Assembly: GCA_026392355.1 (NCBI GenBank) | Contig: JAPLCF010000030.1 | Coordinates: forward strand, 310,001-374,000 | Origin: Actinomycetota bacterium | GTDB lineage: Bacteria > Actinomycetota > Thermoleophilia > Gaiellales > F1-60-MAGs149 | Length of the DNA stretch: 64,000 bases | Direction: 5' to 3' | Shown: piece by piece, positions 54,451 to 64,000 of the stretch | Layout: each line of letters begins with the position of its first letter | How positions within the stretch are numbered: position 1 is the stretch's first letter | The notes under the pieces: model-generated | Database searches by the model: none | Seen by the model: only the letters and a program-made list of their open reading frames with translations | Told to the model about the DNA's origin: nothing | Translations under genes and position numbers: made by a program

Positions 54451-56205
54451 TCAGCCAGCCGAGGCTGCGCCGGGCTGGTCCATCTGCGCGCCGAGCGAGG
54501 TCAACGCGCGAGCGGTGAGCTTTGCAAACGCCGGTCCGGCGACCTCGCCGCCGTAGTACTGCCCGCCGTGCGGCTCGTCGACCATGATCAGCGTGAGTAC
54601 CTTCGGGTTCTTGACCGGCGCGAAGCCGACGAACCAGGACAGGTAGCGCGCATCCGAGTAGGTGCCATCGTTGTTGAGCTTCTTCGTGGTGCCCGTCTTG
54701 CCGGCAACCGAGTAGCCCGGAATCGCCGCGGCAGAGCCCGTGCCCTGATCAGAGACCACACCCTCAAGCATGTTCGCCAACGTCCGCGCGGCTGCGGCGG
54801 GCATGATGCGCTTGCGCGGAGCCTGCACCGGCCCCTGCCCGTCGATGCGCGTGACGACGTGCGGCTGGATCTGTACGCCGTCGTTGGCAATCGTGGCGTA
54901 GAGCTGCGCGATCTGGATCGGCGTGGTTGCAATGCCATGGCCAATCGGGATGTTGAGCGGCGACGTGCCGGACCACTGCCCGTACGACGGCACGGTGCCC
55001 GACACCTCGCCCGGAAGGTCGATGCCAGTCGGCATGCCGAAGCCAAAGCGATCGATCCACTGCGACAGCACGCTGTCGCGATTTCCCGGGGACGAGAGAT
55101 GCTCGTAAGCAAGTTTTGCCACGCCGATGTTCGACGACATGCGCAGCGCCTCGGCGGCTGTCTTGATGCCTGGATCAGGGTGTGAGTCGCGAAGGATGCC
55201 GTCGTAGAGCTGCCACTCCGACCCCACCTCAACGCGCGTGTTCGGAGAAATCCGGCCCGTCGAGAGCCCTGCGCCAAGCGTGACGGCCTTGAACGTCGAG
55301 CCCGGCTCGTACTGATCGGTGATGCCCCGCAGGCGCAGCTGGTCGGCGGTGGCCTCGCGGAAGGTGCCGTCCTTCGGCAGCGGAGCCGTGGCCATCGCGA
55401 GGATCTCACCGGTGGCCGGCTGGATCACGATTGCCGTGACGGCCTTGGCGCGGTACTGCACGCGCGTCTCGCTCACCACCGCCTCCGCCTCGGACTGCAC
55501 CTGGCGATCGATGCCCGTGCTGATCGTGCGGCCCGGCTGCATCTGCTGGTTGCGAATCACCTTGATCGCATTGCCGACCGGGTCCGCCATCCGCACCTCA
55601 AGGCCGTCCGTACCGCGCAGCACGTCGTCGTACTGGAGTTCCAGCCCGGCAACACCCTCACCCTCGACATTCGTGACACCGATCATCGGTGCGGCGATCG
55701 CGCTCGGGTAGACACGGCGCTGCGCCGGTGCAAAGTCGAGCCCCTTCAGGTTCATCGCCTCGAGCTGCTTGACCTGCGCCTTGGGCACCTCGCGGGCAAG
55801 GTCCACGTGCGAGACGCCCTCGGCATTGAGTCGCTGCATGATCGTGTCGGGCGACTCTCCGCTCGCCTCGGCAACCGCGGCGATGAGACGCGCCGGATCG
55901 GTCACCAGCGACGGCGTAGCGCCAATTGTGCTGGCCTCTTGCGTCAGGGCCAGGCGATAGCCGTCGCGGTCGAGGATCGCGCCGCGCAGCGCGGGCGTGA
56001 CGACCTCGTTGCGGTGCTGCCCCGTGGCGCGCTCGGAGTAGAAGCCACCATCCACGACCTGCATCTGCACTGCGCGGCCAAGGCAAATCGTCAGGAAGAT
56101 ACCGGCGGCAATCAGCAGCCAGCGGATGCGCCGCTCAGGGGGCGGCGACTGCGGGGTCCGTGTGCGGCGCCGCGGCGTGCGAGGGGGAGCGGTCCGCGTG
56201 GCCAC
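54451..56205 (-). CDS. ftsI: division-specific peptidoglycan transpeptidase FtsI/PBP
   Basis: YEPGSTFKAVTLGAGL, RMSSNIGVAKLA, YSVAGKTGTTKKL. Confidence 0.94.
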   Translation of the reverse strand: MATRTAPPRTPRRRTRTPQSPPPERRIRWLLIAAGIFLTICLGRAVQMQVVDGGFYSERATGQHRNEVVTPALRGAILDRDGYRLALTQEASTIGATPSLVTDPARLIAAVAEASGESPDTIMQRLNAEGVSHVDLAREVPKAQVKQLEAMNLKGLDFAPAQRRVYPSAIAAPMIGVTNVEGEGVAGLELQYDDVLRGTDGLEVRMADPVGNAIKVIRNQQMQPGRTISTGIDRQVQSEAEAVVSETRVQYRAKAVTAIVIQPATGEILAMATAPLPKDGTFREATADQLRLRGITDQYEPGSTFKAVTLGAGLSTGRISPNTRVEVGSEWQLYDGILRDSHPDPGIKTAAEALRMSSNIGVAKLAYEHLSSPGNRDSVLSQWIDRFGFGMPTGIDLPGEVSGTVPSYGQWSGTSPLNIPIGHGIATTPIQIAQLYATIANDGVQIQPHVVTRIDGQGPVQAPRKRIMPAAAARTLANMLEGVVSDQGTGSAAAIPGYSVAGKTGTTKKLNNDGTYSDARYLSWFVGFAPVKNPKVLTLIMVDEPHGGQYYGGEVAGPAFAKLTARALTSLGAQMDQPGAASAG

Positions 56206-56206
56206 G

Positions 56207-56668
56207 TCAGTTCGTCTGCAGATCCTTGGGGATGCGGATCTTCAACGTCTGCATCGCCTCAGACGGGACAAGCACCATCCCGTAGGCCGCTGCGGCGCGC
56301 TCAACCCGACCGTCGGCCAGGCGCTGCTCTGTCTGCGCCTGCACGTTGGCGGCGTCGTTCTGCGTCTGCTCGACGTACGCGCGCAGCTCGCCTGCCTGCA
56401 TGGTGGCGCGCAGCGACGAGACGTGGAGGTAGACGATCACCGAGAGGATCACGCCCACGAGAGCGATGATCGCGGCGATGCGGAAGGGACGGCCGCCGAC
56501 CGACGCGCGGCTGGTGGTGCTGCGATGGATCGTGGCCTTGCGGTTGATTGTCGAAGCGCGCTTTGCGGCGGTACGCGAGCGCCCGCCGTCGACGGGGCGC
56601 GGCTTAGGTGCTGCGGCCGGACGGCGGCGCGGCGTGGTCGGCGCCTGGCGGGGAAGCGCGACGGCCAT
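56207..56668 (-). CDS. ftsL: FtsL-like single-TM coiled-coil cell division protein
   Basis: Basic N-terminus, TM IAAIIALVGVILSVIVYLHV and coiled coil between rsmH and ftsI. Confidence 0.75.
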   Translation of the reverse strand: MAVALPRQAPTTPRRRPAAAPKPRPVDGGRSRTAAKRASTINRKATIHRSTTSRASVGGRPFRIAAIIALVGVILSVIVYLHVSSLRATMQAGELRAYVEQTQNDAANVQAQTEQRLADGRVERAAAAYGMVLVPSEAMQTLKIRIPKDLQTN

Positions 56669-57663
56669 CAGGCGGCGTCCTTCGGTAGCGGGGCAGTCGT
56701 GCGCTCGGCGACACGCAGGCGCGACGACGCGGCGCGCGGGTTGCGGTCGAGCTCGGCGGTGCCGGGGCGCACGACGCGGGACGTCAGCACGCGCAGCGTG
56801 GCTTGGCGACCGCAACCGCACATCGGCAGGTCGGGCGGGCAGATGCACGGCGCAGCGGCAGACCGGAAGAAGTCCTTGACGATGCGGTCCTCGAGCGAGT
56901 GGAACGAGATGACCGCAATACGGCCGCCCGGCTTCAGGATCTGCATGGCGGCTTCGAGACCCTCCTCCACCATCGTCAGCTCGTCGTTGACGGCGATGCG
57001 GAGCGCTTGGAAGACGCGCTTGGCCGGATGCCCCGAGCCGAACTGGGCCGGCGTCGGGATGGCATGACGAATCGTGTCGACGAGGTCGGCGCTGCGCTCG
57101 TACGGCTGCGAGGTGCGGCGGCGGCAGATGGCGCGGCTGATCTGGCGGCTGTAGCGCTCCTCGCCGTAGCGGCTGAAGATGTCGGCGAGATCGCGCTCGG
57201 ACAGCTCGGCGAGCAGGTCCGCGGCGGTCTGTCCCCCACGCGGATCCATGCGCATGTCGAGCGGTGCATCGACGGCGTAGGAGAAGCCGCGCTCGGGCTG
57301 ATCAATCTGCATGGAAGACACGCCGAGGTCGAGCAGGATCGCGTCGGCCTGCACGCCTTCAACGGCAAGCGAGCGGAAGCCGTCGACGAAGTCGCGCTTG
57401 AGCAGGCGCACGGCCATGTCGGGGTGCGAGGCGCGGAACGAGCGGGCGCGGTTCTCAACGGACGGGTCACGGTCGATCGCGACGTACGCGCCGCGGCCGT
57501 TCATCACCTCGGACAGCATCGAGGCGTGGCCGCCGGCACCAAACGTGCCGTCGACAACGGTCATGCCAGGCGCGACGTCGAGCAGCGCCACGACCTCGTG
57601 GGCGAGGACCGGATCGTGGATCGCGGCGTTAGCGGGCATCACGGACCAGGCGCTCTGCGACAT
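56668..57663 (-). CDS. rsmH: 16S rRNA (cytosine(1402)-N(4))-methyltransferase (start may be 57639)
   Basis: VVDGTFGAGGHASMLSE, ILLDLGVSSMQIDQPERGFSY, VISFHSLEDRIVKDFF. Confidence 0.96.
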   Translation of the reverse strand: MSQSAWSVMPANAAIHDPVLAHEVVALLDVAPGMTVVDGTFGAGGHASMLSEVMNGRGAYVAIDRDPSVENRARSFRASHPDMAVRLLKRDFVDGFRSLAVEGVQADAILLDLGVSSMQIDQPERGFSYAVDAPLDMRMDPRGGQTAADLLAELSERDLADIFSRYGEERYSRQISRAICRRRTSQPYERSADLVDTIRHAIPTPAQFGSGHPAKRVFQALRIAVNDELTMVEEGLEAAMQILKPGGRIAVISFHSLEDRIVKDFFRSAAAPCICPPDLPMCGCGRQATLRVLTSRVVRPGTAELDRNPRAASSRLRVAERTTAPLPKDAA

Positions 57664-58063
57664 TCTCGGCGCTCCCTTCCAGCTCGGCGAGGCCACGTTC
57701 CCAGGCCCCGCGATCCCAGATCTCAAGACGATCACGGACGCCGACGACGACGATCTCGCGGTTCAATTCGGCGTGCTGCATGAGCGGCGCCGGCACGGCC
57801 ACGCGGCCCTGTCGGTCCAGCTCGGCCTCCACCGCACCGCCGAACAGGTAGCGCTCCATCTGGCGTCCCTCACGGGTGAACGGATCGAGGCGGCTGATCT
57901 GCTGCTCCACGAATGCGTCCCAGCCGTCACGGGCGTAGATCGCGACGCAGCCATCGAGGCCGCGGGTCACGAAGACGCCGTCAGCGAAGGGCTCGCGCAG
58001 CCGCGAGGGAACCGTCACTCGGTTCTTCTCGTCGAGCTTTTGTGCGTATTCGCCAAGCAGCAT
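57629..58063 (-). CDS. mraZ: transcriptional regulator MraZ
   Basis: MLLGEYAQKLDEKNRVTVPSRLREPFADG, DRQGRVAVPAPLMQHAELNREIVVVGVRDRLEIWD. Confidence 0.96.
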   Translation of the reverse strand: MLLGEYAQKLDEKNRVTVPSRLREPFADGVFVTRGLDGCVAIYARDGWDAFVEQQISRLDPFTREGRQMERYLFGGAVEAELDRQGRVAVPAPLMQHAELNREIVVVGVRDRLEIWDRGAWERGLAELEGSAENVAERLVRDAR

Positions 58064-58112
58064 GAGGGTCGTTTCCGTGGTGGTCGGGGGCCCCATTGCG
58101 GCTCCCCCTCTG

Positions 58113-63027: not shown

Positions 63028-63693
63028 CTAATCGCTCAAACCAGGGCGCCCAAACCCACCGATATCGCTATTGATACGCCACTGCGCGTAGGTTCGCCGC
63101 GTGACGGCGTCGCCAGCATTTCCTTCGATGGTGTGGAGATCGTCGCCACGAACGCGTTCGACGATGCCGACATGCCCGTGCTCGAACCACACGACATCAC
63201 CCGGTTGTGGGTCCGCACTCAGGCGATCCCGGTAGGCCGCACGCGCCACGAACCACGAGCGCACATCGCCCGTCCACGCGATACGCCAGCCACTGGATAA
63301 GCCACCACTGAATGGTTGTCCCGCAGCCCGGAGAACCCATGACACGAAGTCGGCACACCACGCCTCAGCGTTGCCATCGGTGAAGACATCAACGCCGGGC
63401 CCGCGATTTGACCCCGGTGGCGCTTCGGCGATGCCCGCCGCCGCCAGCTGTGCCGCAATCGACACGATCGAACCGCCGGCGACGAGCGGCAACTTGCCTG
63501 GCATCCCGCCGGATAGCTGCGCACCTTGGGCGGCGGATGATCCTGCCGACGCAATCGCATTGAGTGAGGCAACCGTCGAAGCAAAACGCTGCCCCAGACC
63601 ACGCATGCCCATGGCAATGCCCCCAGCCACAAGCGCGGTCACGATCAGCACCGCGAGCCATTCCACCGTGGCTTGCCCCTGCCGCGAGGTCAC
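63028..63693 (-). CDS. TadE/Flp-type prepilin-signal protein with C-terminal CHAP amidase domain
   Basis: N-terminus RQGQATVEWLAVLIVTALVAGGIAMG (G|QATVE); C-terminus WCADFVSWVLRAAG...PQPGDVVWFEHGHVGIVERVRGDDLHTIEGNAG. Confidence 0.8.
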   Translation of the reverse strand: MTSRQGQATVEWLAVLIVTALVAGGIAMGMRGLGQRFASTVASLNAIASAGSSAAQGAQLSGGMPGKLPLVAGGSIVSIAAQLAAAGIAEAPPGSNRGPGVDVFTDGNAEAWCADFVSWVLRAAGQPFSGGLSSGWRIAWTGDVRSWFVARAAYRDRLSADPQPGDVVWFEHGHVGIVERVRGDDLHTIEGNAGDAVTRRTYAQWRINSDIGGFGRPGLSD

Positions 63694-64000
63694 CCCAAGA
63701 CACCCCCGGCGACGTCGCGTAGGACCAGCAGCTGCCCACCGATCACGATCAGCAGCGAGGCTGGGGCCAGGAGCGCACCGACCACGAGCAGCATCTTTGG
63801 CGCCGCTGCGGCAGCTCGCTCACGTGCAGTCGACCGCGCACGGGCGCGCGCATCTGCTGCCAAAAGACGCAATGCGCCGGCAATAGGTACACCCAACTCC
63901 TCGCTCTGTCGCAGCAGCGAACCCAGAGGCCGCAGCTCCGGGTGCAGTGCGCAGAGCCGCGCGCCGACCCCGAGCTCGCCACCGTGTTCAACTGCGTCGA
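63690..64000 (-). CDS. tadC: TadC-like type II/IV secretion system F-domain membrane protein (truncated by window edge)
   Basis: GELGVGARLCALHPELRPLGSLLRQSEELGVPIAGALRLLAADARARARSTARERAAAAAPKMLLVVGALLAPASLLIVIGG, typical GspF/TadC C-terminus. Confidence 0.85.
   Translation of the reverse strand, partial: DAVEHGGELGVGARLCALHPELRPLGSLLRQSEELGVPIAGALRLLAADARARARSTARERAAAAAPKMLLVVGALLAPASLLIVIGGQLLVLRDVAGGVLG

Follow-up and report, generated by a model that had tools for sequence, protein, structure and literature searches.

In a stretch of DNA from an Actinomycetota genome (64,000 nucleotides, hereafter the window), a single open reading frame joins a class III prepilin signal and a hydrophobic helix to a C-terminal CHAP domain, and its start codon overlaps the stop codon of tadC, a platform gene of a Tad pilus. 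With slightly more confidence than doubt, we interpret the product as a modular (minor) pilin that serves a minimal monoderm Tad (type IVc) pilus, and its CHAP head would be a hydrolase that opens the wall where the pilus exits. The features of the gene and its product are collected in Table 1.

Table 1. Prepilin-CHAP fusion gene, its parts and the adjoining tadC, in window positions
Feature	Position	Strand	Basis or remark
Prepilin-CHAP fusion CDS	63028..63693	-	221 aa, GTG start, stop included
Class III prepilin signal, residues 1-12 (MTSRQG/QATVEW; slash, predicted cleavage)	63658..63693	-	Alignment, column counts, background scan
Hydrophobic α1 helix, residues 13-35	63589..63657	-	Model helix 2-52; hydropathy 2.18
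Variable linker, residues 36-67	63493..63588	-	17% mean pairwise identity; residues 51-65 pLDDT < 50
Conserved lead-in to CHAP, residues 68-105	63379..63492	-	53% identity; fold match covers from residue 71-72
CHAP catalytic domain (predicted), residues 106-217	63043..63378	-	PF05257 8e-14; Foldseek and VIA: Ly7917, PlyGRCS, NlpC/P60 enzymes
Cys113, predicted nucleophile	63355..63357	-	Invariant 13/13
His174, predicted catalytic base	63172..63174	-	Invariant 13/13
Glu190-Gly191-Asn192, predicted third and fourth active-site residues	63118..63126	-	Invariant 13/13
tadC, 3' part, cut at window end 64000	63690..64000	-	Whole gene L111:1691-2311; T2SSF 1.4e-10; TGA overlaps fusion GTG (GTGA)

The N-terminus of the fusion carries a short hydrophilic leader ending in Gly or Ala, a Glu at +5 and a hydrophobic tract of about 21 residues, the elements by which a class III signal is defined in the available part of PMC8179133. 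The motif predicts cleavage after Gly6, which would put Glu11 at +5. These columns, which had been noticed in the preliminary description of this open reading frame, are indeed conserved in the 13 aligned homologues: Gly occupies position -1 in 12 of them and Ala in the other one, while Gln at +1 and Glu at +5 are found in all. As a check on chance, the strict motif [GA]Qxx[VIT]E followed by a hydrophobic stretch was sought in 2696 other open reading frames of at least 150 amino acids from 68 fetched loci, and occurred in none. At the C-terminal end, the CHAP profile PF05257 matched residues 106-192 with an E-value of 8e-14 (52.3 bits vs a 26-bit cut-off), and it also matched each of the 13 homologues. 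The CHAP-like Cys, His and Asn picked out in the preliminary description proved to be Cys113, His174 and Asn192, which, together with Glu190, are identical in the whole set; the Cys, the His and a polar third residue are what we take to be the CHAP active site. CHAP enzymes can be amidases or endopeptidases, and the label 'amidase' originally given to the protein is therefore dropped here. The same description had expected profile matches at both ends, and the prepilin half of this expectation failed: Flp_Fap (PF04964) matched none of the 13 N-termini, and TadE (PF07811) reached just E = 1.2 in one of them. It is to be noted that these two profiles are insensitive in this lineage, since a 56-residue Flp-like pilin of the same genus also falls under both cut-offs.

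Among the 13 homologues, the signal (residues 4-12) has a mean pairwise identity of 72%, the helix 31% and the linker 17%, and the value rises again to 53% over residues 68-105 and 70% in CHAP. Conserved ends with a drifting middle are the pattern expected of two working modules in one chain, and sequence and model together would make the fusion a modular pilin, with a pilin module, a linker, and a domain with its own predicted function. An AlphaFold2 (AF2) model from the 13 sequences had a mean pLDDT of 77.1, with a single long helix over residues 2-52 and a poorly ordered segment at 51-65; the CHAP part scored mostly 79-95, and 66-79 at residues 121-140. Sequence searches of PDB sequences returned nothing useful. 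By Foldseek, the best PDB match was the lysin Ly7917 (5d76; E 4.8e-4), with TM-scores of just 0.3-0.4. VIA-align of residues 71-221 matched Acd24020 (Z 12.5, rmsd 2.9, 113 aligned), Ly7917 (Z 11.4, rmsd 2.7, 122 aligned) and PlyGRCS (Z 11.1); VIA hits to other folds were given no weight in either direction. From these matches, the fold of the model is therefore papain-like, of the CHAP/NlpC-P60 type, in agreement with the CHAP assignment first made by eye.

The fusion is the last gene of a minus-strand operon, in which a response regulator, a histidine kinase, an Ssd/CpaE-like ATPase, TadA, TadB and TadC precede it in this order; the window ends inside tadC, and the upstream genes were taken from the extended locus of the same genome (L111, G000:C9:372000-391500). 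TadA matched TIGR03819 at 2.3e-103, yet stayed under the model cut-off (345.9 vs 373.15 bits), and the Ssd-like protein matched TIGR03815 weakly (5.5e-10; 38.9 vs 154.45 bits, well below cut-off). TadB and TadC each consist of a single T2SSF domain (2e-13 and 1.4e-10, respectively; PF00482 for TadC), so that the neighbour named as tadC at the outset is indeed a TadC-type protein. The order tadA-tadB-tadC-fusion was found in 12/12 loci whose contig extends past the tadA start; in one more (L005), where the contig begins inside tadA, tadB-tadC-fusion is kept too. In all 13 loci the tadC stop overlaps the fusion start, by four bases (ATGA, GTGA, CTGA) or by one (TGATG); the overlapping start in L004 would be CTG. 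An artefact of assembly or annotation could thus be ruled out, the fusion being one open reading frame, with the tadC overlap kept, in 13 loci of different genomes. The two parts, which might have turned out to be separate genes, are one tadC-coupled gene in every full-length homologue. Downstream of the fusion lies a gene for a Peripla_BP_6 substrate-binding protein (5.2e-42), the same in 12 loci of the genus; it was not counted as part of the system because it is unmatched in two more distant genera. No obvious immunity gene is present in the operon. Elsewhere in the window, a division and cell-wall cluster (MraZ-like, RsmH-like, FtsL-like, penicillin-binding protein) was recognised by eye at 54451-58096, on the minus strand. 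Two records titled 'Bifidobacterium breve' (L007, L010) hold the Thermoleophilia-type locus, and their titles look mislabelled.

Full-length fusions were found in 13 of the 16 genomes of the family to which the window belongs (G000-G015). In G012 the contig begins inside the fusion gene, whereas G007 and G014 are without it; G007 is also without TadA, and the contig of G014 ends in TadA. Because the close relatives are metagenome bins, these absences may be gaps. Beyond the family, the 45 other genomes of the order held no full-length fusion and CHAP-only matches in 10, and no full-length match was obtained in 399 genomes of the class and 396 of the phylum (seven candidates scored per genome; E-values are per genome). 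The profile score dropped in these class and phylum genomes from 281 bits, for the weakest full-length member of the family, to at most 97 bits for all others. Two class genomes (G330, G145) aligned from profile position 3-4, but their N-termini are without the signal. Outside the family, the strict signal was found in none of about 115 places with a CHAP relative (100 + 27 loci, some duplicates), a sample that included the N-termini of the best 80 of 249 relatives, plus loci taken from the class and phylum matches; L041 and L043 matched a looser pattern, but without Gln at +1, and were rejected as prepilin signals. A maximum-likelihood tree was built from 68 CHAP domains chosen by hand among the fetched loci; its SH-aLRT support is modest, and its bootstrap had not fully settled. 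In this tree, the 13 Tad-linked domains form one clade (99/62; 98% of bootstrap trees), and therefore point to a single origin of the fusion.

A sister family (f2) offers a view of the same operon in another form. At its end, in the place of the fusion, stands a short prepilin of about 80 amino acids (RGQATIEY...) in L156, L157, L158 and L160, although in L156 the frame continues to 167 residues past the signal; L159 has no short prepilin within its 6 kb. Since these short prepilins are without CHAP, a Tad machine of this type can run without the hydrolase, a point that counts against the reading proposed below. The family of the window genome seems to have gained the CHAP head. The tails of the f2 short prepilins bear a CxCP motif (CLCP, CVCP; L156:6565, L157:7668, L158:7050, L160:2937). 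In yet another family (f4; L161, L162, L167), TadB and TadC form one fused open reading frame of about 450 amino acids, with no prepilin directly after it; the next genes differ (UvrC-like by eye).

The fusion might have been the sole prepilin of the machine, as was suggested by the lack of Flp_Fap or TadE matches over cut-off in the genus; this was rejected when weaker matches revealed a Flp-like pilin of 56 amino acids (MTDRRGQGTVEYLGL...) and two larger prepilins, P2a (about 276 amino acids) and P2b (about 260-280). In the window genome, the signals of the four are alike: RRGQGTVEY in the Flp-like pilin, RTGQATIEL in P2a, QRAQATVEW in P2b and RQGQATVEW in the fusion. Matches to the Flp-like pilin with E-values no higher than 2e-11 came from 11 of the 16 family genomes, including that of the window, the other five being incomplete bins or lacking it; P2a had matches in 12 of the 16. 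The flp gene and the fusion share a contig, about 8-11 kb apart, in four genomes (G005, G010, G013, G015), whereas in the window genome flp, P2a and P2b are on other contigs than the fusion. Islands of the Flp-like pilin with divergent P2a and P2b, none at a meaningful Pfam score, lie at L210:7417-9390, L208:262-2535 and L212:6174-8431. Two contigs of the window genome, L208 (G000:C42) and L209 (G000:C1), carry near-identical flp-P2b-P2a islands, reflecting either duplication or unresolved strain variants. P2a has an invariant C-terminal Cys and a conserved [GA]SRxxDxxxCR-like stretch; it was considered as a second enzyme and left uninterpreted, its AF2 model being weak (pLDDT 65.9) and unmatched in PDB within an E-value limit of 0.001.

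As for the rest of the machine, a prepilin peptidase (PF01478) was found over cut-off in 11 of the 15 family genomes searched, including that of the window, its gene lying outside the tad operon (in the window genome at G000:C5:177581-177889). The secretin profile PF00263 matched in none of the 16 family genomes, and in 6 of 14 known genomes that served as control. With no secretin, a filament has just a membrane and a wall to cross; moreover, since near relatives are titled Actinobacteria, Thermoleophilia and Gaiellales, the host probably has a single-membrane envelope, and absence of the secretin is expected in monoderms according to the available part of PMC6916266. Overall, the machine looks like a minimal monoderm Tad pilus to which a modular pilin with a wall hydrolase has been added.

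Among known systems, as far as the available portions of the papers describe them, the nearest machine is the minimal monoderm Tad (Tfpc) pilus, exemplified by Bifidobacterium breve and Micrococcus luteus (PMC6916266) and by the actinobacterial ssd-tadABC loci (TIGR03815/TIGR03819). Its set comprises a pilin, two minor pilins, a peptidase encoded elsewhere, two platform proteins, an ATPase and TadZ (PMC6916266), and the present family has the counterparts, namely a Flp-like pilin, two more prepilins, a peptidase elsewhere, two T2SSF proteins, the TadA ATPase and an Ssd/TadZ-like protein, with no secretin. The differences are that here an extra, CHAP-headed prepilin ends the tadABC operon and that the pilin genes lie either on the opposite strand or on a separate contig. 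The fusion protein itself resembles the modular type IV pilins, such as PilB of Streptococcus sanguinis (PMC8179133), in having a class III signal, an α1 helix, and a functional domain grafted after a linker. The covered part of that survey reports 264 architectures of pilins with grafted domains, two of them predicted peptidase modules (S74, M26), and has no mention of a peptidoglycan hydrolase module ('hydrolase', 0 occurrences); its modular pilins were recognised by the IPR012902 N-terminus, whereas the N-terminus of the fusion is of the Flp/Tad type. The nearest enzyme in function is LytF, the competence-induced CHAP hydrolase of Streptococcus sanguinis, whose active-site Cys is needed for normal transformation (PMC13192262, available text). 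LytF helps a type IV filament across a monoderm wall, as the fusion may do; however, LytF is a separate secreted protein with Bsp repeats and no prepilin signal, and the filament in question is the Com pilus. Lastly, the Kil Tad pili of Myxococcus xanthus have Tad minor pilins with extra domains, exposed at the tip, but the Kil tips are heterotrimers (KilLMN), the KilN4 domain is without a known fold, and the host is diderm (PMC12075869 and PMC8460266, as far as their available text goes).

In the mechanism that we propose, the fusion would be translated together with TadC by stop/start coupling, to which the overlap of the two genes points. Its short basic leader would be removed after Gly6 by the prepilin peptidase encoded elsewhere, as the motif and the presence of that enzyme suggest, and the freed α1 helix with its Glu at +5 could then be taken up by the TadA/TadB/TadC platform that would assemble the Flp-like pilin. 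The place of the protein would probably be the filament tip or close to it, or else the membrane site of assembly, and the linker would give the CHAP head access to the peptidoglycan of the cell itself. There, judging from the conserved residues and the fold, Cys113, His174 and Glu190-Asn192 are predicted to cut peptide or amide bonds where the filament exits, and the wall opening would be confined to that site. Action on the cell's own wall is favoured because the fusion belongs one-to-one to the tadABC operon, because every homologue has the same head, whose rate of divergence is close to that of the platform proteins, because no obvious immunity gene is present, and because a CHAP enzyme, LytF, promotes pilus export in Streptococcus sanguinis. 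The failure of the TadE and Flp profiles to recognise the fusion N-terminus, and the presence of a strong 56-residue Flp match in just 11 of the 16 family genomes, would count against this reading as far as sequence comparison goes. In its strongest form, the proposal would be that each Tad filament carries a CHAP head at its tip or base that opens the peptidoglycan at its exit from a single-membrane cell, with wall opening tied to assembly both through a single covalent connection and through stop/start coupling with the platform gene; this we offer tentatively, as somewhat more doubtful than an even chance.

The conservation of the head also bears on the unlikely case that it is a weapon at the pilus tip, cutting the wall of a touching neighbour for killing, predation or nutrient release, much as the Kil Tad pili of Myxococcus kill on contact by means of variable minor pilins at their tips. 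Prey killing by Tad pili with large, exchangeable pilins at the tip is on record (available parts of PMC12075869 and PMC8460266), and the closest PHROG matches of the fusion are endolysins and tail lysins, i.e., enzymes that break foreign walls. On the other hand, the 13 homologues share one and the same CHAP head, with a pace of evolution like that of the platform proteins and unlike that of a diversifying weapon; the operon has no candidate immunity gene; the fusion gene is coupled to tadC instead of lying in a separate tip cluster; and the words 'hydrolase' and 'peptidoglycan' have 0 occurrences in the available text of the Kil tip paper (PMC12075869). The contact killing by Myxococcus Tad pili that bear large tip pilins is why this possibility was retained.

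Improbable as well, and ranked next, is a helper that is processed like a prepilin and never enters the filament, its helix docking at the Tad platform and its head trimming the surrounding wall. Gram-positive conjugation machines have comparable CHAP or lytic enzymes anchored in the membrane. A linker of 17% identity and a bulky head would suit such a stationary anchor, and other prepilins exist to build the filament; however, the leader and the Glu at +5 are as conserved as in the Flp pilin, and a plain anchor would not need them. A general wall hydrolase with a prepilin-like membrane anchor and no dedicated pilus role is very improbable, for although many of the actinobacterial CHAP relatives in the fetched loci combine a membrane helix at the N-terminus with the lack of any Tad context, the link to tadC is strict in 13/13 loci, the fusion is absent from the genomes searched outside the family although CHAP is common, and the signal motif is strongly constrained.

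We thus return to the modular pilin that would open the cell's own wall, the idea of a pilus-linked wall opening having been raised already in the preliminary description. A pilus-linked function is favoured by the comparative evidence, and LytF offers a recent experimental precedent for a wall hydrolase that aids a pilus in leaving a monoderm cell; incorporation into the filament, catalysis, the bond cleaved and action on the own wall are put forward here as predictions. The architecture had been thought to be undescribed, and consistent with this, the available text of open-licence PubMed Central papers yielded no description of a prepilin joined to CHAP or to another wall hydrolase. Enzyme-bearing modular pilins have already been predicted in print, and the same body of text is consistent with the CHAP, or wall-hydrolase, variant being new. 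A review of monoderm pili (PMC6916266, available part) counts the passage of type IV filaments through the peptidoglycan of single-membrane cells among the open questions, and in 2026 a CHAP hydrolase was reported to aid the exit of a streptococcal pilus from the cell, with the connection between enzyme and pilus left unknown in the accessible text (PMC13192262). In the present family, a hydrolase of the LytF class appears to be covalently joined to the pilin module of a minimal Tad machine, which makes the question of wall crossing directly testable, by asking whether pilus export depends on the catalytic cysteine and whether the filament contains the enzyme. For this family of lake-water Actinobacteria, the fusion suggests a way in which the pilus might make its own passage through the cell wall.

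A related enzyme also occurs beside another wall-crossing appendage, the flagellum. In 24 of 131 loci examined, CHAP relatives lie next to flagellin in other genomes of the class (examples are L226, L227, L267, L288 and L289), with Pfam confirmation for two loci; this neighbourhood speaks for the proposed wall-opening role. Unlike the fusion, these have no prepilin signal, their MSVEAVLARIAEIQ-like N-terminus is without a membrane helix, and they form a separate clade, and the likeness is thus an analogy and not a shared descent of function. Descent of the Tad-linked CHAP from the flagellin-adjacent ones was likewise unsupported, the Tad clade being on the opposite side of the tree. CHAP proteins with the MSVEAVLARIAEIQ-like N-terminus and no signal peptide adjoin flagellin in L226-L239 (in part), L267, L268, L288 and L289, the last also with FlhA, and are candidate flagellar wall hydrolases.
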